DNA of 39,795 nucleotides. It comes from Pirellula staleyi DSM 6068. GTDB taxonomy: Bacteria; Planctomycetota; Planctomycetia; Pirellulales; Pirellulaceae. Position numbers and translations under genes: made by a program. This document shows positions 8,317 to 20,860 of the stretch, piece by piece. The notes below the pieces were generated by a model. The model did no database searches, had not been told where the DNA came from, and saw nothing but the letters and a program-made list of their open reading frames with translations. Location of the stretch: the NCBI GenBank assembly GCA_945900945.1, contig CAMDKL010000040.1:1-39795 (forward strand). Reading direction: 5' to 3'. The number at the start of each line of letters is the position of its first letter. Position 1 is the first letter of the stretch.

Positions 8317-10257
8317 GTGACAGAGGGAACCAAGACCGGGTCATTAGCAGCCGTGGTTGGCATCGTTGTACTCTTGGCGTGGTTTACGTCGAACGGCAAC
8401 CGTGTCAACTCTCCGATTATAGAGATGGTGGGAAAACCACTCTTTGAGAAGTTTACCGATCCTCTTGCAGCGGCATCGCTCAAGATACTGCGATACGATA
8501 CGCCCAAGGAAGATTATGTCGATTTCGAGGTCGCTCGCGATCGAAAGTTTGGAATTTGGACCATTCCGTCGCACGAGAGTTATCCAGCCGATGCAGGCAA
8601 GCAGATGAGCGAGGCCGCAAATTTGTTTGTCGGCCTTAAAGTACTGGGTATCGCGACGGAAAAGAAGTCGGAACAAGCGCTTTTTGGTGTCGTTGAGCCG
8701 AACAAGCAGAACTCAGACCAAGGAGGAGAAGGCGTAGGCATGCTGGTCCAAATGCGGGATGAAAAAGGGGACATGCTGACGGACGTGATCATCGGCAAAG
8801 AAATCGACAAGAAAAAACGATACGTTCGCGTCCCGTCCGAGGATGTCATTTATGTCGTTGAATTGGATACCGCTCCGCTAAGCACGGATTTCAAACAATG
8901 GATCGAACCGGACCTACTCAAATTGAGCAGCAATGACATCGAGACGCTGGGCGTTCGAGATTACCAAATCATAACAACTCAACAAGGGCTCGCGCTGAGT
9001 CGTAACTACGAAGCGGATTTAAATTTTGCGACTGGGAGCGGTCAATGGGAACCGAAACGTATTACCAGTTTCGAGTCTGATCCGCCATCCGAACGCGCCT
9101 TGAATCCTGAGGAGCAACTCAACGCAACCAAATTAAACGAAATGAAGAACACTCTCGACAACTTGAAGATTGCGGACGTCATCAAGAAGCCTGCCGGGCT
9201 TGCAGCGGATCTTAAAGGAGACAGCAACCTGTTGAAGAACAGCGAGTCGCTCATGTCGCTTCAACGCCGCGGGTTCTTTCCAAATCCAAATCAAAAAGGT
9301 GGTGACACCATCGATTTCTATTCCAAGAGTGGCGAGCTGGTGGTAACGCTCAAGGATGGTGTTCAATACCTACTGCGATTCGGTGGTGCTGCCGGAGCAG
9401 AGATTAACGCTGTCGATGCCGCTGACGCAAAAGAAGAAGGCAAAGCGGAGGAAACGGTTTCGATCAATCGATTCATGTTAGTCACGACCCGAGTGGACGA
9501 GTCAAAGTTTCCAGAACCCGATCTAGAACGACTTCCTGAAACGGTAGAAGAACTGAAGGAAATCGAACGTTTGAAGATGCCGGCACCAGCAGTGACGCCG
9601 CCTAGTGAACCCAAAGTGGACGAACCCAAAGTGGACGAACCCAAAGTGGACGAACCAAAGGGGACAGATCCCGCTGCTTCCGATGCGAACCCGAAGGATC
9701 CCGCGCCCGCGACCGAAAAACCATTGGAACCTCCCGCCGCTGAAAAACCGGCTTCGGAAAAGCCTGCCTCTGAACCTGCGGTCACTCCGGAGGAGCCAAA
9801 GACACCAGCAGAACCGGAAAAGCCGCAAACGCTTTCGAATCGTGGCGATTCACCAGCGGGTAGACTGGTCGCCTTTCAAGAGCCTTCCGAGGAAAAGAAG
9901 TCCGAGGTGCCAGCGAGTGCCGATGCACCAGCGGTCCCGAAAGAACCAGCTGCAAACGCAGAACCGACCGAGGACGAGTGGAAGGAACGATTAGAAGCGA
10001 CGCGTGAGCGGATTACCAAAGAGAACCAACGCAAAATCGATCAAAAAAATGACAAATTGAAGGCTGCGAAAAACAAAGTCGCCGAACTCAATGGCCGTTT
10101 TGCGGATTGGTATTATGTTGTTAGCGAATCGGATTATAAAAAGTTGAAAATTGCGATCACGGAATTGATCCAGCCAAAGACTGCCCCTGGAGCGGGCATG
10201 GGAGCACCTCAAGGTGGATTTCCAGGCCAGGGAGCATTCCCAGGTTTCCAACCTTAG
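8317..10257 (+). CDS. DUF4340 domain protein of the Gld-type ABC operon
   Basis: 646 residues. It has one N-terminal membrane anchor (about 5-22, LAAVVGIVVLLAWF), then a DUF4340-type periplasmic region (about 70-400; DVIIGKEIDKKKRYVRVPSEDVIYVVELD), then a low-complexity Pro/Glu/Lys/Ala tail (about 395-560) and a short charged helix before a Gly/Phe-rich end (GGFPGQGAFPGFQP). DUF4340 proteins are regular neighbours of GldG-type genes, so this is probably the third part of the same membrane complex. The start is GTG 8317 with GGAGAG at 8303-8308, eight bases away, which fixes it well. The tail contains a 15-base tandem repeat at 9607-9651. Domain function is unknown; the operon membership is strong, with 66 bases between genes. 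Confidence 0.85.
   Translation: MTEGTKTGSLAAVVGIVVLLAWFTSNGNRVNSPIIEMVGKPLFEKFTDPLAAASLKILRYDTPKEDYVDFEVARDRKFGIWTIPSHESYPADAGKQMSEAANLFVGLKVLGIATEKKSEQALFGVVEPNKQNSDQGGEGVGMLVQMRDEKGDMLTDVIIGKEIDKKKRYVRVPSEDVIYVVELDTAPLSTDFKQWIEPDLLKLSSNDIETLGVRDYQIITTQQGLALSRNYEADLNFATGSGQWEPKRITSFESDPPSERALNPEEQLNATKLNEMKNTLDNLKIADVIKKPAGLAADLKGDSNLLKNSESLMSLQRRGFFPNPNQKGGDTIDFYSKSGELVVTLKDGVQYLLRFGGAAGAEINAVDAADAKEEGKAEETVSINRFMLVTTRVDESKFPEPDLERLPETVEELKEIERLKMPAPAVTPPSEPKVDEPKVDEPKVDEPKGTDPAASDANPKDPAPATEKPLEPPAAEKPASEKPASEPAVTPEEPKTPAEPEKPQTLSNRGDSPAGRLVAFQEPSEEKKSEVPASADAPAVPKEPAANAEPTEDEWKERLEATRERITKENQRKIDQKNDKLKAAKNKVAELNGRFADWYYVVSESDYKKLKIAITELIQPKTAPGAGMGAPQGGFPGQGAFPGFQP
9607..9651 (+). repeat. 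15-bp tandem repeat inside DUF4340 gene
   Basis: Three identical units GAACCCAAAGTGGAC (9607-9621, 9622-9636, 9637-9651) followed by a degenerate fourth at 9652-9666. In frame they encode the pentapeptide EPKVD repeated. The exact DNA identity between units points to recent slippage expansion in a flexible linker. Confidence 0.95.
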
Positions 10258-11905: not shown

Positions 11906-12282
11906 TTCAAACGCCCTACCCCCAACTTGGCCTATCCTCACATAGGTCCGGCTGTCCTCAGCCGGACATAGCCTCACGTGGGACATGCTGACCTACGTAA
12001 TTCTGAAAATATATCGGGTTGTGGAGCAATAGAAGGAATAGTCCGAAAAGACAAGCTGTAACGATCGATCTGTTCTCGTTCTGATGAAATTGACGATAGA
12101 ACGACGACTCTACCGAAATGAACGTGTAGCATTCAACCGTTAGTATTTGATTTTTCATCAGGAATTCTACGATAGATCGTCGGACCCTTGCGATTCTTGC
12201 CCGGAGGCCAAATGGTGTGCTAAATTTTTAATAAAGGTTTTTTCCACTTTGATCCAAAGTATAGATTCACCGCCGGCCAAAA
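11906..12282. other. Intergenic region with AGGA-loop hairpin
   Basis: 377 bases without a credible gene. At 11931-11967 is an inverted-orientation copy of the AGGA-loop hairpin. At 11976-12000 a second partial palindrome (CACGTGGG then CCTACGT) follows. The remainder (12000-12282) is AT-richer and should hold the promoter of the Hpt gene, but I cannot pick out boxes with confidence. Confidence 0.6.
11946..11967 (-). repeat. Hairpin repeat with AGGA loop (copy 2)
   Basis: Arms GTCCGGCTG and CAGCCGGAC around TCCT on the plus strand, which is AGGA on the minus strand. Read on the minus strand it continues into CTATGTGAGG, matching the CTACGTGA tail of the copy at 2661-2682 with one change. Confidence 0.75.
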
Positions 12283-12639
12283 ATGTCTATCACTAGCCCA
12301 TCGATTGACAAAGTCAAGTTGCTTGAACGCTGCTTAGGCAATTCCGCATTGGTGGAAAAACTGCGTATTGCATTTTTGAGTTCACTTCCCAGTGAGCGTC
12401 ATTTGTTGCAGGATGCGATTGAGATTTGCGACCTGAGTTCAGTCGCCAGGATTGCACACAAGTTACGCGGCACAGCGTCGAATATGTGTGCGATTCCGCT
12501 ATCGGAAGCAGCGCATCAAGTCGAACGCGTTGCGCGCAACAACGAAATCGATCTAATCGCTGAGCGATGGTGGGATTTGAATCAACAAATCGAAAAGTCG
12601 ATCGACGCACTTTCTGTAAGGGATTCGAATCCATTATGA
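12283..12639 (+). CDS. Stand-alone histidine phosphotransfer (Hpt) protein
   Basis: 118-residue cytosolic four-helix phosphotransfer protein. The motif VARIAHKLRGTASNMCAIPLSE matches the Hpt active helix, with His59 as the expected phosphorylated residue and the small GT/S residues after it. Hpt proteins pass phosphate between two receiver domains. The stop codon overlaps the start of the REC-HD-GYP gene (ATGA at 12636-12639), so the two are translationally coupled. The hybrid kinase encoded at 15242-20860 ends in a receiver and has no Hpt of its own, which makes it the natural phosphate source. Confidence 0.88.
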   Translation: MSITSPSIDKVKLLERCLGNSALVEKLRIAFLSSLPSERHLLQDAIEICDLSSVARIAHKLRGTASNMCAIPLSEAAHQVERVARNNEIDLIAERWWDLNQQIEKSIDALSVRDSNPL

Positions 12640-13781
12640 CATTGACGACCGAAATACCATCCGTGACTGAAGCCAAATCCAATGGACTCAAGGTGATGAT
12701 CGTTGACGACGATCCGATTGCACTAGAGATACTGTCCAACTTTCTGCGAGAGTCGGGTTACACGGTTGAACTCGCAATGAACGGCAAAGAAGCACTCGAA
12801 AAGATGCGTTACTTCTCGCCTCGCATCGTGATATCCGATGTGGATATGCCGGAGATAAACGGTGTTGAACTTTGTCGCGCGATTCGGAATCGGCCGTCGA
12901 TTCAGTATACGTATTTGATTCTCTTAACGAGTCACTCAGACACAAAAAGTCTGATACTCGGACTCGATGCCGGAGCAGATGATTATTTGAGCAAGCCGTT
13001 TCGTCACGAAGAATTGCGATTGCGACTGGAGGGCGGTCGGCGTCTGCTGTCACTTGAGGGACGCGACATGATGATCTTCTCGCTGGCCAAATTGGCCGAA
13101 AGTCGCGATTCTGATACAGGCACTCATCTGGAGCGAATTCGCGAGTACTCGAAAATTTTGGCGACCGAACTAATGACTTGGCCCAAATTTGAAAATGTCG
13201 TCGATGCCCAGTTCGTCGAATTGATCTATTTGACGAGCCCGTTGCATGATGTTGGCAAAGTTGGCATTCCGGATAATGTTCTGCTCAAACCGGGTAAGCT
13301 TACGCCGGAAGAGTTTGAGGTGATGAAGCGTCATACTTTGATCGGTGGCGAAACTCTAGGTGCGTCCGCGCAAGCCCATCCGGAAGCAAGCTTTCTGAAG
13401 ATGGCAATGGACATTGCGTTGAAGCACCATGAACGCTGGGATGGTACTGGCTATCCGTTTCAACTCAAAGGTGAGGAGATTCCATTGTCCGCACGCATTG
13501 TTGCAGTTGCCGATGTTTACGATGCATTGACAACCAAACGAGTCTACAAGCCCGCCTTTACACACGAAGCGGCCGCCGAAATCCTTTACAAGAGTCGCGG
13601 TTCGCACTTCGACCCTGATTTGGTCGATGCATTCTCAAATGTCGAAACGCAAATGCGACGCATACGATTCGAACTTGATGTTCAGATGCACGCCAATGAA
13701 GAATCGATCAAGACCAATACTCCTCTTTCGGTACCTGAGCTTGGTACATACCCGGCGCCAGTGCCATCGAACGCGTTCTAG
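12636..13781 (+). CDS. Response regulator with HD-GYP c-di-GMP phosphodiesterase domain
   Basis: 381 residues from the ATG at 12636. The receiver domain has the acidic pair in MIVDDDP, phosphoacceptor Asp68 in ISDVDMP, and Lys120 in LSKPF. The HD-GYP domain has HDVGK at 204-208, HHERWDGTGYP at 264-274 and the downstream VADVYDALTTKRVYK. This domain hydrolyses cyclic di-GMP and the layout is that of RpfG-type regulators. The frame is open to 12567, but the upstream part overlaps the Hpt gene and does not resemble a receiver. The ATGA overlap makes 12636 the clear start. It is the likely output of the Hpt-centred relay. It converges on the methyltransferase gene with no gap (ends 13781, next gene ends 13782). 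Confidence 0.92.
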   Translation: MTLTTEIPSVTEAKSNGLKVMIVDDDPIALEILSNFLRESGYTVELAMNGKEALEKMRYFSPRIVISDVDMPEINGVELCRAIRNRPSIQYTYLILLTSHSDTKSLILGLDAGADDYLSKPFRHEELRLRLEGGRRLLSLEGRDMMIFSLAKLAESRDSDTGTHLERIREYSKILATELMTWPKFENVVDAQFVELIYLTSPLHDVGKVGIPDNVLLKPGKLTPEEFEVMKRHTLIGGETLGASAQAHPEASFLKMAMDIALKHHERWDGTGYPFQLKGEEIPLSARIVAVADVYDALTTKRVYKPAFTHEAAAEILYKSRGSHFDPDLVDAFSNVETQMRRIRFELDVQMHANEESIKTNTPLSVPELGTYPAPVPSNAF

Positions 13782-14807
13782 TTAGGTCCGTGTTACCTCG
13801 AGGAATATGATATTTTGGTTTTCTTCTACACTGACATGAATGTCTCGTATATCTGCTTGGTCGATCAGTTTAGTCAGACCCATCATGTCCATTCGATCGC
13901 GATACACCAAAAACCAATCCATGCAGGCTTCCATGTACCCGATGTCATGGATGGTTGGCAGGAAATTTGCGAGTACGAGTTTTCCGCCGGATTTGAGCAT
14001 CGAAAACAAATGGCAGCTTAGATTTTGCGCGGTCTTTTCATTGAGATAGTCATACAGTCCGGTCGAATAAATCAAATCGAGAGTGCCGAAGTCCATACGG
14101 CCTGCGAGCAGTTTTCGAATATCGGCCAGCTCGCACTGAACTCCATAGCGTCCGAAACTGCGTTCGACTTCTGCTAGGCTTTCCGCATCTGCGTCCAATG
14201 CGATAAACCTACCAAACCTTCGACGCCGAACGGCGGAACTCATTGAGGCTTCCCTCAGGTGACCGGAAGCGACAGCCATCACTTCGGGTTTGGCTTTGGA
14301 ACGCGCTATCTCATCGAGTTTCTCCGCCAAATGTTCACGTCGTGCACGCACTCCCGCAGAAGCAGAAGCGCTAATCGTATACTGAAAGATTCGTTGGCCG
14401 AGTAGACTCGTTGCTGGTGGTTGCCATCCCTCATCCAAGCCATAGATATAGTCCATCATCACCGCGTCGCCAGCGTAGCCTCGAGGCTTGTTGTACGCTC
14501 GACTGGTGAATGGATCTTGGTGAACGAGGGACAGTAGATCCGATTCGCGAATTTGCTTAACACAGTTTGCCCATGCGTCTGGGGCCAATTGGTCTCGCAA
14601 TTTTTTGCATTCGATACACAGTCGATGCACGGATGCCTGGACCTCCTGAGGTTCAGCTGCGGATGATCGCAGATTTGCTACAACGGAGTTAAGGAAGGTT
14701 AAGTTCGTATCCGGAAGAGTTTCATGCGGGTGATCAAAACGCCTCGATATCGTTTTTGAAATACTTTCAATCACATGTCCCTGAAGGTTGGGTATGACCG
14801 ATGCCAT
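13782..14807 (-). CDS. Class I SAM-dependent methyltransferase, PhcB-like
   Basis: 341 residues. The N-terminal part carries DPFTSRAYNKPRGYAGDAVMMDYIYG, a hallmark of a methyltransferase group often named after 3-hydroxypalmitate methyl ester synthesis (PhcB of Ralstonia). The catalytic Rossmann part has motif I (VMAVASGHLRE), an acidic SAM-ribose position (FIALDADAESL), and LDLIYSTGLYDYL and GGKLVLANF before a YMEACMDWFLVYR segment. The substrate cannot be read from sequence; an acyl substrate is an inference from family naming. The start is ATG 14807, with AGGAG nine bases upstream on the minus strand (near 14817-14821), rather than the TTG at 14816. It lies between the HD-GYP regulator (convergent) and the hybrid kinase (divergent), inside the signalling island. 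Confidence 0.8.
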   Translation of the reverse strand: MASVIPNLQGHVIESISKTISRRFDHPHETLPDTNLTFLNSVVANLRSSAAEPQEVQASVHRLCIECKKLRDQLAPDAWANCVKQIRESDLLSLVHQDPFTSRAYNKPRGYAGDAVMMDYIYGLDEGWQPPATSLLGQRIFQYTISASASAGVRARREHLAEKLDEIARSKAKPEVMAVASGHLREASMSSAVRRRRFGRFIALDADAESLAEVERSFGRYGVQCELADIRKLLAGRMDFGTLDLIYSTGLYDYLNEKTAQNLSCHLFSMLKSGGKLVLANFLPTIHDIGYMEACMDWFLVYRDRMDMMGLTKLIDQADIRDIHVSVEENQNIIFLEVTRT

Positions 14808-15241
14808 AGTTTGCAACTCCTATCCTAAGTTCAACCAAAAAACCATGAAAAATCGAACATGAAAATGCGTTTGAACGGCTGGGCGATCTGGACTTGAAAT
14901 TCAAGAGCCGCGAACATAACCGTACCGACATGAGACAAATACAAAAACTGCATCCAAGAATTGAAAATAAGATATTTGCATCGGTACAATCAGGATTTTC
15001 GATTGCCTTTCACACGACTTCATTGAAAGCGAATTATTTTTTATGGCAGCTCGTTATTTACATTCCATACTCTATTCAGTGCAAAGCGATAAGCTTTGCT
15101 AAGAGCGCCAGGTGTTAAATTCCCAATTCTGTTTGTGCCCTGTCTTTTTGGGTGTTTTGTTACCCCCATTTGTGCTGTCGGTTGATTCTCGTGCAGGATC
15201 CCATTTCATCGAAGAATCAAACCGACGAACCACCGAGCAAC
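14808..15241. other. Divergent intergenic region of the signalling island
   Basis: About 430 bases between the methyltransferase and the giant kinase. It is AT-rich from 14890 to 15120. It must carry promoters for both directions. One candidate pair is recorded separately. No conserved small gene was recognised; an open frame at 14894-15118 has no recognisable features. Confidence 0.6.
14961..14990 (+). promoter_or_regulatory. Putative promoter for the hybrid kinase gene
   Basis: TTGAAA at 14961-14966, spacer of 18 bases, TACAAT at 14985-14990. Each box has at least four matches to the sigma-70 consensus. The distance to the kinase start is about 250 bases, so a long leader would follow. Low certainty. 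Confidence 0.35.
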
Positions 15242-18200
15242 ATGCACACGACTTCTGGCGCCATTCCGATTGCTGATTGGATATCCTCCATCAGTGATAA
15301 TTCTCAGCGCATACTGTCCTTGCTGAAATTGTCTACGGACATCCTATTGGATCTCCAAACACGACACGCCAATGGAGAACTTTTTTCGGAACTAAACGAT
15401 GCGACTATTCGCATACTTCTGCCCGAGCGACGGGCGGTTCTTATTAGCAGCACTTCGGTTGTAACTCCAAAGATGATTGGAGGTGCGATCAATACGACGC
15501 TATCTTTGGAACGGGCTATCTTCCTCGCCCCCGAGCAGACGGGTGTTCTACAACGAACCGTCGGACCGCATACAGATTTATACAGTTTAGGGGTCTTTCT
15601 CTATCGTACGATAAGTGGCGAGGATCCGATCCCAGCATCCAATTTGAGCGAACTGATGTTGGGGCAAATGACTACATCGGTTGCCAGCTTGCGAGAAAGA
15701 GGAAACTCAATAGCACGCTGTATTGATGAATTTATTTTGCGACTATTGAAGCGAGAACCGCGCGATCGCTATCAATCCGCAAAAGCCGCACTTGCGGATT
15801 CGAATTCGATTGTGGATTGGCTTGAAGGAAATAGAAAAGATTCGGTCGTACTTGGTTGCACCGATAAACGCGAGCGATTGTGTGAACCCTCTCTTGTAGG
15901 TCGGGATCCGTGGCTAAATCGGTTCGTTCAGGCTCTCTCTGATACTAGTTTGCCGGTTCAACGCTGGCTAATTCTATCCAAATCAGGAGAGGGCAAAACG
16001 CGACTCTTGGATGAGTTTGCAAAGGAAGCCATGGCCTGCGATGCGAGGGTCGTTCGAATGACGGGAATAGACAGCGAGCACTCTCGCCCTCTCGAGACAT
16101 TTGGTTCGCTCAGCCGCGATTTGGAAGAGCATTGCATTGCGAATCCGGCACTTCTCTGCACCATGACCGAAGACTTGGCCCAGCATGAGGAAAGTATAAA
16201 CACGCTATTTCCTTGGCTGTTCGCTTCCAAGGAAAAGACAACGAATGTTGGGCCAGAGAAGTTTGCTGGGCAACGAATGAAACGAGCTGTCGAGTCCCTT
16301 TTGGACATGTTGAATACACGACCAAACCGCTTCGTGATGTTGGTGGACAATCTCGATCGGTTCGACGCACTCTCGCGCGACTTGCTGACCGGCTGGTTGA
16401 AAACAAGAAAAGTGGGGCAAGGCAATTCGCTTATGGTCGTCGTTACGGGATTGCTGAGTAGCGGCATGCAACTCCAGTCCGAACTGGGACAAACTCCCGA
16501 GATACTAGAACCGTTGGCTCGGTACGAAATCAGCGCAATACTTAACTCGATGATCGGTGAATTCCCAAGAGAAGCTTTGAAAATGGCAGCGAATGCCGCC
16601 AAAGGAAACCCGTTCCTAGCGATATCTTTACTCCAGGGAATGATCGAATCCGGAAGTGTTTACTTTCGCGATGGGGCATGGTCTATTCGGCCTGGTACCC
16701 CCCTAACTCTTCAGAGCCATAGCCACGGATCGAGTGCATTGACAACACGCACTACCGGACTGCCCGCTCACGCAGTGCTGCTCCTGCGAGCCGGCGCCAT
16801 ATTGGGAAAAAGCTTTCGATATCGCGAAGCGCAATTGCTTTCCAATGTCGACGGGGATCCGGCACAAGAGGCTTTGGAGTTGGCAATCCAACGACAACTG
16901 GTTTGGTCGGATAGCCAACAGCGGCAAATGGGGTTCGTCCACGACGATGTTCGACAGCTGTTCTTGGGCCAGCTCAATCCGGAAGAGAAGAACGCATTGC
17001 ATGTCGATGCAGCAAAACTAATATTCCACGAGGATTCGAATCGCTATTACGAACTTGCATACCACTACGATGCGGCTGGATGCCGTAACGAAACGATCGA
17101 TTTTTCAACACTGGCTGCAAAGCACGCGCAGCGCCAATATGCAAATGATTTGGCTATTCGCTATTATCGGATGGCTCAGAATTGGATCACCGTATCCGAT
17201 CGGACCCGAAGGCGAACGACATCGGAGAGCATTGGAGAAGTCTTCCTGAGCATAGGCGATTATGATGCCGCCGATTCCGCGTTTGCTGAATCGCTTACGT
17301 ATGCAGACCAAGCTATGGATCGAACCCAAATAACGGGCAGATTGGGCGACGTCGAGTTTAAACGCGGGCGCATGAGGCAAGCGGCGGAGCAGTATATTGC
17401 AGCGCTCGAATTAAGCGGAGTTCGAGTCCCACGCACTACGTCTCAATTGATTCCGTGCTTATTTTGGCAATCCTTGCTGCAAGCTCGACATTCACTTTTG
17501 GGATTGCCTAGAAATTGCAAAGAGGCGTCGCCACTACAACGCTTGCAGTGGACCTTGTTTAGCCGCTTGGGCCACACATACTGGTTTAGCCGTGGAGCCG
17601 TTTGGACTTTGTTCGCGCACCTTTCAACCATGAACGATGCCGAACGCTATCAAGACACGCCAGAACTCGCCCAGAGTTACTCAGAACATGCTCCGGTATG
17701 TAGCCTGTTGCGATTCTTTCGACGTGCTGAAGTCTATTCAAAGCGATCTCTCAAGATACGTTGCGATCAACAGGATCTTTGGGGACAGGGCCAGACGCTT
17801 GCTTATGCCAGCGTCGTGCATTTGGCCGCAACCCATTTTCAATCTTGCATCGATGTCGCCTCGGAAGGGATCGAGTTGCTAGAACGAACCGGAGATGCTT
17901 GGGAAACCAATATGGCCCGCTATCAACGGGCCAATGCACTCTATCGAGCGGGCCGTTTTCGAGAAGCAGCCAACGACGCGAAACGCATTCACGATTCAGG
18001 CGTGGAAATCGGAGACGATCAAGCTGCCGGCATCAGTTTAGACGTTTGGATGCGATCCGCACCACACCAAGTTCCTGCGGATATTGTTGTGAAACAGGCG
18101 GGGATTCACCGAACCGATGCTCAAAGTCATACTCAAACCCATCTCGCTTTGGCCATCGTTCAGATGCGAGGCGACCAGCTCACACTCGCAGTAGCAACGT

Positions 18201-20860
18201 TGCGAGATTCGATTGAACGTTGCAAGCAAGCAGGGCATCTCAACACCTATACCAGTCCCAGCTATGCATGGCTTGTGACCGCTCTTCGACGCATTGCAAG
18301 TACGACGCCACGTTATCAAGTCCAGCTGTTTCGAAATCGTATTGATCAAGCACGACTTGCAGCCAAGACTGCCTATAAAATTGCTAAGAAATTTCCGGCT
18401 GATCTTCCACAAGTATTGCGAGAGTCAGCCATGATCGAATCGCTCATCGGGAAAAATTCCTCGGCTGCGAGGTTGTTTCGGAAAAGCATCAAAATCGGCG
18501 AAAAGCTCAATAGTTTAATGCAGGTTTGGGAGTCACTTACGTCCCTCAGCGAGTTGTCTCAAGACCTGAATGATCGTCAGCTGCAATTGACACACGAAGA
18601 AGCCAAAAGGCTGGCTTGGTTGACGGAAAACCTGGCGGATTCCATACGCTGCATTGAGGGAAATACGGCCTCGCAAGAATCGCTTTCGCTTGCAGATCGA
18701 TTTGACACGTTGCTGGCAGACGGACGTCGAATCACCCGATCGCTGGACAAACGCGACATCTTTCGGGAAAGCTGCTTAACGGCACAGCATCTCCTAAGAG
18801 GACAAATCATTCTCATTCTCTCCAGAGATGAGGGGGACGCAAAGTGGACCGTTTGCGACAAAATATCGACAGGTGTTGTCACACTATCACAATTGGATGG
18901 CATCTCCCAAGATAACAGCTTCATCGGCCGAATAGGCAATGCAGGTGTGACACGAGTCATGCCTTGGGACGATCGAAATCGCTTTGCCAACGGTAGTCTT
19001 TTAGCCACTCCGATCCGAGTTCGCGAATCGATCGTGGCCTACCTTTTGGTTGGTCACACGGAACTGGACAACCTGTTTGGCAATGAAGAGTTGAAGGTGG
19101 CTGAGTTTATCGCTACGTTGACGGGTGCCGCGCTGGAAAATGCAGAGGGGTTTGGCGAACTGCATAAACTGAATTCCACTTTGGAACAACGTGTAGAGGA
19201 GCGCACTGCTGCGGCTGAACTTCGCTCAACAGAGCTGATTCTAAGCAATGAAGCACTCCGTGTAACCGAAGAGCAGCTTCGCGATGCGATTGAGGTAGCC
19301 AATGCGGCTAGTCAAGCAAAGAGCCGCTTCCTGGCAACGATGAGCCATGAGATCCGAACGCCCCTCAACGGAATCTTAGGAATGACGCAACTCGCATTGG
19401 CAAACGATCCCAATCAGCGGCTTACCAACTACTTGAACACCATCCAACGTTCAGGGGATTCGTTGCTCCGATTGATCAATGATCTGCTCGATTTTTCAAA
19501 GCTAGAGGCAGGGAAAATGACGGTAGAATCGATCGTATTCTGTCCGAGGGAAGTATTCCAGGATGCAGTTGGACTTCTTTCCGTTCCGGCTTGGCAAAAG
19601 GGGATTGAGATCGCCGCCTACTTCCCTCCGAATATGCCGGAAAAAATGATCGGCGATCCGATGAGGCTACGGCAAATCCTCCTAAATCTTTTAGGAAACG
19701 CGATAAAATTCACTTCCAAGGGCTACGTCGAATTGCGAGTGGATGTAGGTTTAGCTGAGTCGCCGAAATGGAAGATTCGTGTCATGGATACAGGTATCGG
19801 CATCCCTGAAGACAAACAAAAATCAATCTTTGAAGCGTTTTCTCAAGCGGACAACAGCACAACACGTCGATTCGGAGGCACTGGACTTGGGCTTTCCATT
19901 TCAGCCGAGCTCGTTCGATTGATGGACGGAGTCATCGAGGTCACGAGCCAAGCAAACGTCGGCAGCGAATTCACGATCGTCCTACCGCTGACCGTGCCAA
20001 CATCAACAATTCAAACTGCAGATAAACGACAGCATCGTTTTTCCAGCCAGAGGTTCTTGATCGTCGAACCATGCGATGCAGCTAGACGTTGCCTGGAACA
20101 AAATCTAAACGATTGCGGTGGGTTTACGATTAGCTTGGATACTTGGTTCGACAAGTCCACAACGGAACGCCCTGACTTGGAACTCTTTGACGCTGTCATC
20201 GCTGCAGGCCCCGAGGCAAGCGATATCCTTGACCAAACCTCAGCCCTTGGCATTCCAAGCTGGTTGGCTCAAGGCCCAAATGCTTTGCAGGATGTGACTC
20301 GCAAAGTTCTAGTCAAGCCGTGCATTGGAAATGAATGGATCGACACCCTTACGGATGCCTTTCTGGAACAGGAACCCAATGCAATAGCCTTAACAGATCC
20401 AATTTTCAAACCACGGAGCACACCCTCCGAGCCAAACGCAGCATCGGACCTCAATATCAACCTACATGTCTTAGTAGCCGAGGACGGGCTGGTCAATCAA
20501 CTCGTTCTAGTAGGTCTACTCGAGTTGTCTGGCCATAGGGCTACCGTTGCAAACAATGGACTAGAAGCAGCTGAGTTACTTGAGAGCCAGAACTTCGATG
20601 TTTGTCTGATGGACCTCGATATGCCTGAGTTGGATGGAGTTGGGGCGACACGGCAAATTCGCGGGCGTGGTATTGGTTTGCCCATCTATGCAATGACCGC
20701 GCATCACGACAAACACCATGCCGATCAATGTCGCGATGCAGGCATGAACGGATTCCTCACCAAGCCAATTAATCCAATCGACTTACAACGGATCCTCGAC
20801 TCGGTGGCCCGACAGGTGGGCTCGAGTCAGCAAGTCGTCCCCAAAACAGGAAGACACTAG
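15242..20860 (+). CDS. Giant hybrid sensor histidine kinase: pseudokinase-AAA-TPR-GAF-HK-REC-REC
   Basis: 1872 residues from ATG 15242 (the frame is open from GTG 15152). No membrane segments are seen. Order: 12-195 remnant of a Ser/Thr kinase C-lobe (APEQTG, DLYSLGVFLY, EPRDRYQSA) with no N-lobe and no HRD or DFG; about 218-600 STAND/AAA ATPase (Walker A SGEGKT, Walker B MLVDNLD); about 600-1150 helical TPR-like repeats; about 1150-1300 GAF domain; coiled coil; HisKA with phosphorylated His1369 (TMSHEIRTPLNG); HATPase with DTGIGIP and GGTGLGL; a receiver-like domain at about 1600-1710 with Ala where the phosphorylated Asp should be; a full receiver at about 1740-1860 with Asp1791 and KPI. 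The trifunctional kinase/ATPase/histidine kinase layout is known. The input signal is unknown. With no Hpt domain it probably feeds the Hpt protein at 12283-12639. Confidence 0.9.
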   Translation: MHTTSGAIPIADWISSISDNSQRILSLLKLSTDILLDLQTRHANGELFSELNDATIRILLPERRAVLISSTSVVTPKMIGGAINTTLSLERAIFLAPEQTGVLQRTVGPHTDLYSLGVFLYRTISGEDPIPASNLSELMLGQMTTSVASLRERGNSIARCIDEFILRLLKREPRDRYQSAKAALADSNSIVDWLEGNRKDSVVLGCTDKRERLCEPSLVGRDPWLNRFVQALSDTSLPVQRWLILSKSGEGKTRLLDEFAKEAMACDARVVRMTGIDSEHSRPLETFGSLSRDLEEHCIANPALLCTMTEDLAQHEESINTLFPWLFASKEKTTNVGPEKFAGQRMKRAVESLLDMLNTRPNRFVMLVDNLDRFDALSRDLLTGWLKTRKVGQGNSLMVVVTGLLSSGMQLQSELGQTPEILEPLARYEISAILNSMIGEFPREALKMAANAAKGNPFLAISLLQGMIESGSVYFRDGAWSIRPGTPLTLQSHSHGSSALTTRTTGLPAHAVLLLRAGAILGKSFRYREAQLLSNVDGDPAQEALELAIQRQLVWSDSQQRQMGFVHDDVRQLFLGQLNPEEKNALHVDAAKLIFHEDSNRYYELAYHYDAAGCRNETIDFSTLAAKHAQRQYANDLAIRYYRMAQNWITVSDRTRRRTTSESIGEVFLSIGDYDAADSAFAESLTYADQAMDRTQITGRLGDVEFKRGRMRQAAEQYIAALELSGVRVPRTTSQLIPCLFWQSLLQARHSLLGLPRNCKEASPLQRLQWTLFSRLGHTYWFSRGAVWTLFAHLSTMNDAERYQDTPELAQSYSEHAPVCSLLRFFRRAEVYSKRSLKIRCDQQDLWGQGQTLAYASVVHLAATHFQSCIDVASEGIELLERTGDAWETNMARYQRANALYRAGRFREAANDAKRIHDSGVEIGDDQAAGISLDVWMRSAPHQVPADIVVKQAGIHRTDAQSHTQTHLALAIVQMRGDQLTLAVATLRDSIERCKQAGHLNTYTSPSYAWLVTALRRIASTTPRYQVQLFRNRIDQARLAAKTAYKIAKKFPADLPQVLRESAMIESLIGKNSSAARLFRKSIKIGEKLNSLMQVWESLTSLSELSQDLNDRQLQLTHEEAKRLAWLTENLADSIRCIEGNTASQESLSLADRFDTLLADGRRITRSLDKRDIFRESCLTAQHLLRGQIILILSRDEGDAKWTVCDKISTGVVTLSQLDGISQDNSFIGRIGNAGVTRVMPWDDRNRFANGSLLATPIRVRESIVAYLLVGHTELDNLFGNEELKVAEFIATLTGAALENAEGFGELHKLNSTLEQRVEERTAAAELRSTELILSNEALRVTEEQLRDAIEVANAASQAKSRFLATMSHEIRTPLNGILGMTQLALANDPNQRLTNYLNTIQRSGDSLLRLINDLLDFSKLEAGKMTVESIVFCPREVFQDAVGLLSVPAWQKGIEIAAYFPPNMPEKMIGDPMRLRQILLNLLGNAIKFTSKGYVELRVDVGLAESPKWKIRVMDTGIGIPEDKQKSIFEAFSQADNSTTRRFGGTGLGLSISAELVRLMDGVIEVTSQANVGSEFTIVLPLTVPTSTIQTADKRQHRFSSQRFLIVEPCDAARRCLEQNLNDCGGFTISLDTWFDKSTTERPDLELFDAVIAAGPEASDILDQTSALGIPSWLAQGPNALQDVTRKVLVKPCIGNEWIDTLTDAFLEQEPNAIALTDPIFKPRSTPSEPNAASDLNINLHVLVAEDGLVNQLVLVGLLELSGHRATVANNGLEAAELLESQNFDVCLMDLDMPELDGVGATRQIRGRGIGLPIYAMTAHHDKHHADQCRDAGMNGFLTKPINPIDLQRILDSVARQVGSSQQVVPKTGRH

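Follow-up and report, generated by a model that had tools for sequence, protein, structure and literature searches.

A patchily conserved planctomycete gene set proposed to signal with a lipid methyl ester

What could a methyltransferase be doing between the parts of a bacterial phosphorelay, and for whom might its product be meant? The question is raised by a stretch of DNA from Pirellula staleyi DSM 6068 (contig CAMDKL010000040.1 of assembly GCA_945900945.1; all 39,795 nucleotides are called the window here), in which an earlier note, made from the letters alone, had pointed to four neighbouring genes: one for a stand-alone Hpt phosphotransfer protein, one for a response regulator of the REC-HD-GYP kind, one for a methyltransferase and one for a hybrid histidine kinase. 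All four are present where that note had placed them. Do they belong together, what do they resemble, and what might they be saying? Our answer comes in steps of unequal firmness: the gene set is conserved but patchily distributed; its genes almost certainly form a functional unit; the unit very probably includes a phosphorelay; its ligand is probably a lipid; and, on balance, we favour the view that the locus would be a cell-to-cell circuit for a lipid methyl ester signal that the cell makes itself.

A gene set and its importer

Do these genes keep each other's company elsewhere? A search of 99 genomes for the methyltransferase gave a family match in 33, the window genome included; of the 26 other species of the same genus, one is among these 33 (G025, weakly). 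Nine other genomes carry relatives of the window enzyme at 39-51% identity; five of these repeat the kinase, methyltransferase, HD-GYP and Hpt genes (L033, L034, L035, L038 and L039), two show the kinase and methyltransferase only (L040, L041), and in two from one genus (L036, L037) the methyltransferase gene lies away from the kinase.

So that loci were not picked by way of the methyltransferase, a second search used the TPR region of the kinase, which was found in 59 of the 246 genomes of the order. There were 63 kinase places, and with four omitted (three below 1200 bits, namely G069, G064 and a second copy in G194, and G040 C14, which was not fetched) 59 loci were counted, G109 twice as two contig pieces and G138 for its two copies. 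Where at least 1.5 kb of flank lay 5' of the kinase, a methyltransferase gene stood within 1 kb on either side in 51 of 57 loci; by type, these enzymes are 24 B, 9 E, 7 A (the window's own type), 7 E2 and 4 F. The window layout, divergent at the 5' end of the kinase, is that of 43 of the 51; the four type F genes are co-directional with the kinase, and four type A genes (L034, L038, L154 and L163) are convergent at its 3' end, for which reason the idea of an always divergent layout was dropped. Where the 5' flank reaches 5 kb or more (47 loci), HD-GYP and Hpt genes occur in 33 loci each, 32 have a gene for a FadL transporter no more than 9 kb from the kinase, and 26 have all five genes. Seen from the side of the enzyme, 35 of the 36 genomes with a type A or B methyltransferase also carry the kinase; in the exception, G124, a contig ends inside the methyltransferase gene, beside FadL, HD-GYP and Hpt. 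With the arrangement recurring in dozens of other loci, these linkage counts rule out chance neighbours, and the co-occurrence across genomes to which the earlier note had tied its proposal proves to be strong.

FadL itself had been absent from that note. In several loci an extra gene stands between those for HD-GYP and methyltransferase, and it encodes a FadL/TodX transporter (PF03349, above cut-off by hmmscan in L033, L035, L055, L063, L038, L056, L182, L205 and L208). FadL proteins at E ≤ 1e-10 are found in 55 of the 59 kinase genomes and in 31 of 187 others; by genus, in a hand count at E ≤ 1e-3, FadL is present in 33 of the 36 genera with the kinase and in 34 of the 78 without it. FadL is part of the gene set. 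The window genome has a single FadL, on another contig (PF03349 E 1.9e-29), and among the 62 proteins of a FadL tree it groups (100%) with the locus-linked FadLs of L033, L035 and L184, the very loci that hold the nearest kin of the window kinase (100%) and methyltransferase (95%). This shared grouping by partner genome suggests that the window set still has its own importer, from which the other genes seem to have become separated. The locus FadLs fall in two deep clades of that tree, so the association either arose more than once or was rebuilt. The transporter strengthens the lipid reading; in rhizobia, as PMC9938287 describes, FadL takes up long-chain N-acyl-homoserine lactones (AHLs).

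How patchy is patchy? In the window's own genus the kinase occurs in 4 of 27 genomes. One of them, G025, carries a type B gene together with the other members of the set, across two contigs, and its kinase and that of G007 sit in the type B clade, apart from the window kinase, which suggests that the window system was probably exchanged or transferred as a whole. At L209, the G007 locus, the kinase and an HD-GYP fragment lie at a contig end and a hisC-like neighbour abuts the kinase, unlike in G025, where the type B enzyme stands between the hisC-like gene and the kinase; L209 is a possible listener-only locus. Across the phylum, a search of 294 genomes found the kinase in seven: the window genome, one family member, four genomes of another order of the class and one distant form. 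The four from the other order all have type B enzymes, and in two (L205, L206) the set is complete, FadL, Hpt and HD-GYP included. The distant form comes from another class (L208, G354): FadL, HD-GYP, a receiver and a distant kinase-like protein are encoded there, a protein with a transketolase-C domain stands between FadL and the kinase, and no methyltransferase was found. There are also stand-alone relatives of the methyltransferase, type C, of the same superfamily and with a PRGYAGD-type motif; no Hpt, HD-GYP or full kinase was seen near any of the 14 type C loci, several of which are short contigs, and at two of them another open reading frame has a weak match to the kinase N-terminus.

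The methyltransferase slot

What kind of enzyme is the window methyltransferase? Its gene lies convergent to that for HD-GYP and divergent to that for the kinase, and the PRGYAGD-type motif mentioned in the earlier note is indeed there, at residues 111-117, with the strand as a detail to be added (the gene is on the minus strand). An NCBIfam scan of the protein gave no match, and Pfam gave Methyltransf_25 below threshold only. Profile comparison says more: hhalign aligns type A with the PhcB-type enzymes at E 3.7e-26, which places it in the PhcB superfamily, and the two have in common the motifs DPF..R...KPxGYAGD, GLFDYL and ME..xW.LIYR. In the tree, type A (support 100) and PhcB (98) are two distinct clades and type A is not inside that of PhcB, which is represented by stand-ins (nine Burkholderiales loci, a Paraburkholderia graminis gene and L064, with Ralstonia solanacearum PhcB itself not included), a kinase and two receiver genes alongside being confirmed for L107 (Cupriavidus necator) and L069 only. 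The earlier description of the enzyme as PhcB-like thus holds for the superfamily and not for the clade, and a plain Phc homologue is ruled out, type A and type B enzymes both lying outside the PhcB clade.

The predicted structure of the window enzyme has a class I methyltransferase fold, at moderate confidence (mean predicted local distance difference test score, pLDDT, 68.4; predicted template modelling score, pTM, 0.70). Its best fold match, 3ocj from Bordetella parapertussis, which is also the second sequence match of profile A3, is annotated in the PDB as a 'possible exported protein' with no stated function, and so the structure route did not settle the substrate; 3ocj may offer a structural entry point to the superfamily.

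Is this, then, a Phc system, or an Rpf system? Like Phc in Ralstonia, Cupriavidus and Paraburkholderia, it has a histidine kinase and proteins with receivers next to a methyltransferase of that superfamily, and PhcB is described in PMC6989110 as essential for making 3-hydroxypalmitic and 3-hydroxymyristic acid methyl esters (3-OH PAME and 3-OH MAME). Unlike in Phc, however, the enzyme lies outside the PhcB clade and is without PhcB's long N-terminal domain, the kinase has no hydrophobic segment whereas PhcS is membrane-bound, Hpt and REC-HD-GYP stand where Phc has regulators of the PhcR/PhcQ type, and FadL belongs to the set. The Rpf system of Xanthomonas, which uses the diffusible signal factor (DSF), consists of RpfF, RpfC and RpfG, and its hybrid kinase RpfC carries its own C-terminal Hpt. 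Here the likeness is in a hybrid kinase leading to a REC-HD-GYP output of the RpfG type, present in the window, and in the fatty-acid-derived signal of the Rpf side; the differences are that the window Hpt is a separate gene, that the sensor is soluble and that a methyltransferase takes the place of the synthase. A crotonase-type RpfF did not come to notice at any of the loci, though no search aimed at it was made. The circuit would work like Phc and Rpf and is neither, departing from each in defining features that were tested. A Phc-like cluster turned up in G053 (L064:8923-14345), made of a 497-aa methyltransferase in the PhcB clade, 41% identical to that of Paraburkholderia graminis, a hybrid kinase and a receiver protein; the same genome carries a separate window-type circuit, L035.

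What fills the slot at other loci? By the families of the proteins found there, the slot of the predicted synthase is exchangeable, being occupied by either of two PhcB-superfamily clades, by a putative E/E2 fusion or by an F pair. Types A, B, stand-alone C and the PhcB type are distinct clades of one superfamily (tree; hhalign E 4.6e-26 to 3.6e-42). In types E and E2 an LCM carboxyl methyltransferase would share its chain with a putative thioesterase-type hot-dog domain; LCM is far above cut-off in all eight of the proteins scanned, out of 16 (4 of 9 E, 4 of 7 E2). Type F pairs a Methyltransf_20 enzyme with a protein that, by eye, is alpha/beta-hydrolase-like: its A-T-C-Y-G-like elbow contains a conserved Cys, and Asp-His is conserved close to its C-terminus; this partner had no Pfam match and nothing significant in a PDB profile search (best E 0.095). 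The hidden Markov models for E, E2 and F were built from slot proteins, and the counts rest on independent Pfam matches, in 8 of 16 E/E2 and 3 of 4 F. Profile comparison makes type F a distant relation of types B and C (probability 93 and 95%) and detects no link between E/E2 and A/B; 'three unrelated methyltransferase families' was accordingly dropped, E/E2 alone showing no relation. Loss of the methyltransferase from kinase loci without A or B was rejected for most of them, since the slot holds E, E2 or F. The E2 loci (L191-L196 and L198) have their putative thioesterase-like/LCM fusion by the kinase, three of them with FadL as well.

Synthase type tracks kinase clade, with 10 label changes on a kinase tree of 60 rows, where shuffled labels gave 34 on average, and 6 once enzyme-less loci are left out, L155 being labelled type A there for a methyltransferase about 8 kb away on the same contig; all trees are quick builds, the two kinase trees are without a mixture model, and the larger kinase tree drew long-branch warnings, the window row being among the long ones. 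As for the earlier suggestion that the locus is an independent assembly of the Phc and Rpf logic, co-occurrence, relay anatomy and FadL speak for it, and the use of other methyltransferase families at other loci speaks against it, in that the locus is then not a Phc system with a changed sensor.

The relay and the rest of the window

Could these proteins pass a phosphate to one another? A split relay, from kinase receiver to separate Hpt to REC-HD-GYP, would fit the anatomy (Table 1). The Hpt phosphoacceptor, His59, sits in IAHKLRGT, in a column shared by all eight Hpt sequences of an alignment, and the ATG at 12636 that starts the REC-HD-GYP gene forms an ATGA overlap with the Hpt stop; coordinates, Pfam and motif positions uphold what the earlier note had read there. 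The regulator, of 381 aa, has HD at 204, HHE at 264 and DGTGYP at 269, with Asp68 as the presumed phosphorylation site of its REC domain. Pfam and residue positions likewise bear out a hybrid kinase that ends in a receiver, with no C-terminal Hpt domain by Pfam. The soluble AAA/TPR/GAF sensor of the note survives in part: hydropathy gives no membrane segment (highest 19-residue mean 1.45) and AAA_16 is barely at the Pfam cut-off, TPR_12 is under it, and GAF is not called by Pfam. The earlier note had passed over the N-terminus of the kinase, a degenerate Ser/Thr-kinase-like region; by eye, its HRD-type motif is gone in the window, and HRD-like and lysine motifs are retained in some relatives, for example L056.

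Table 1. Features of the locus, with positions in the window
Feature	Position	Strand	Details
Stand-alone Hpt phosphotransfer protein	12283-12639	+	118 aa, His59; Pfam PF01627 E 1.5e-11
Response regulator REC-HD-GYP, predicted cyclic di-GMP (c-di-GMP) phosphodiesterase	12636-13781	+	Pfam Response_reg E 1.6e-29, HD_5 E 8.5e-31
Type A methyltransferase, PhcB superfamily, predicted signal synthase	13782-14816	-	TTG 14816 start; ATG at 14807
Divergent intergenic region, methyltransferase/kinase	14817-15151	.	335 bp, presumed promoters
Soluble hybrid histidine kinase	15152-20860	+	1902 aa; GTG start, ATG at 15242 possible; Pfam, hydropathy
Degenerate Ser/Thr-kinase-like N-terminus	15152-15856	+	Pkinase C-lobe, residues 124-210, E 1.3e-5, below cut-off; 14-relative alignment
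AAA_16 ATPase domain, P-loop-like SGEGKT	15893-16423	+	Pfam, alignment
TPR-rich region, candidate sensor, probe A2	17069-18751	+	Mean column identity 55%, 14 sequences
HisKA (His1399) and HATPase core	19316-19993	+	Pfam, motif position
C-terminal receiver, Asp1821	20468-20794	+	Pfam, motif position

Elsewhere in the window, a GC-rich perfect inverted repeat with 8-base arms and a 6-base loop (11946-11967), terminator-like by eye, lies downstream of a uvrC-like gene, and a DUF4340 protein with a tandem EPKVD repeat stretch is encoded at 8317-10257. The window also encodes a 3-keto-disaccharide hydrolase (DUF1080-type), and the relative L036 a DUF1559 protein; both kinds are common in the planctomycete phylum.

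A proposed circuit, its rivals and its meaning

What would such a circuit do? Methylation, a lipid importer and a cytoplasmic sensor kinase recur in most versions, often along with what may be an acyl-handling partner, and so, the E2 clade apart, do Hpt and HD-GYP; given these features, the simplest mechanism would be production of a lipid methyl ester, uptake by FadL and a relay to c-di-GMP hydrolysis. That is, the methyltransferase would methylate a fatty-acyl (probably hydroxy-fatty) carboxylate, the resulting ester would exit the cell and re-enter by the FadL-type outer-membrane channel (encoded elsewhere in the window genome), and the soluble AAA/TPR hybrid kinase would sense it in the cytoplasm. 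Phosphate would then move from His1399 to Asp1821 of the kinase, on to His59 of Hpt and finally to REC-HD-GYP, altering c-di-GMP hydrolysis and so, presumably, a switch between swimming and attached life. Both ends of the circuit have precedents, in the esters of PhcB (PMC6989110) and in the uptake of AHLs by rhizobial FadL (PMC9938287), and the enzymes that take the place of types A and B are methyltransferases too, each with a partner that may handle acyl groups, as this mechanism would have it.

Some observations weigh against it. The window locus itself has no FadL, and FadL proteins likewise import food lipids and aromatics. Motif I of type A (VAxGHLREA) deviates from the usual GxGxG, the top PDB sequence matches are weak ones to phosphoethanolamine-type N-methyltransferases, and the hot-dog domain of E/E2 (YiiD_C/DUF4442), matched in all eight proteins scanned, is below cut-off in seven and above it in L196 only. 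An adjacent methyltransferase is missing from 6 of 57 loci: besides L155, with its distant gene, there are L159 and L160, which have theirs on another contig, and L177, L178 and L197, where none was found near the kinase. Within the genus, G007 has the kinase and a partial HD-GYP gene with no methyltransferase match at E ≤ 1e-3, and G002 has a distant kinase copy with no enzyme alongside; in the other order, the fetched stretches of L204 and L207 contain the kinase and the methyltransferase and nothing else of the set. All seven E2 loci are without a linked Hpt or HD-GYP, so that their output must differ or lie elsewhere. The Fisher p-values for co-occurrence, lastly, ignore phylogeny.

Some of this would suit a sensor of environmental lipids, in which FadL, a general hydrophobic channel after all, admits foreign fatty acids (algal ones, for example) or other hydrophobics, the kinase senses them, and the sensor is reset by the methyltransferase, which would modify or inactivate the ligand. 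A kinase retained without a detectable methyltransferase, as in G007, and the type A gene and kinase on different contigs in genus g49 would be at home in such an arrangement, but the swapping of whole synthase cassettes, clade by clade, resembles a switching of signal types more than clearance, and the thioesterase-like and hydrolase-like partners fit acyl release from the cell's own pools; we think it unlikely. We give somewhat less credence to the thought that the target of the methyltransferase is a protein (kinase, Hpt or FadL) or a membrane lipid head group, in the service of adaptation or of envelope remodelling under kinase control. LCM enzymes are, to be sure, named for protein carboxyl methylation, and there are the weak phosphoethanolamine N-methyltransferase matches, but such a target sits poorly with a slot that is filled from two or more unrelated methyltransferase families, in some cases together with an acyl-type partner, with a superfamily shared with PhcB and with the linkage to FadL. 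One might also say, please do not make so much of a neighbour: this could be an ordinary relay from kinase to Hpt to HD-GYP beside a methyltransferase with which it has nothing to do, as the window data alone would permit and as stand-alone type C relatives without a kinase might encourage us to believe. Adjacency and co-occurrence at the rates given above, together with the congruent grouping of three genes (kinase, methyltransferase and FadL), make that very unlikely.

We return, then, to the lipid methyl ester circuit, and venture one step beyond it, tentatively and at something short of even confidence: the loci may make up a planctomycete family of quorum-sensing circuits for lipid methyl esters, each joining a conserved receiving half (FadL, AAA/TPR kinase, Hpt and HD-GYP) to an exchangeable synthase. 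The synthases would come from at least two unrelated methyltransferase families, the PhcB superfamily and LCM, with Methyltransf_20 as a distant third.

Why should this matter? An AHL-based system has reportedly been found in anammox bacteria; outside them, cell-to-cell signalling in planctomycetes seems to be little beyond hypothesis. A paper of 2020 mentions it as speculation, for the stieleriacines (PMC7293339), and one of 2022 as 'recently hypothesised' (PMC9028447). Our literature search, which had most subscription papers and all preprints outside its scope, found no account of such a circuit. Pirellulaceae are described as alternating between swimming and attached life (PMC7293339). Steps of this kind are often under c-di-GMP control. 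The locus points to genes for deletion and predicts a class of compound, and its swapped synthases are a natural series for probing the specificity of signal and receptor. If the family is what we propose, each exchange of synthase would be a change of signal type, moved between species with the matching kinase and importer, and lineages that have the kinase and no enzyme may be listeners only.

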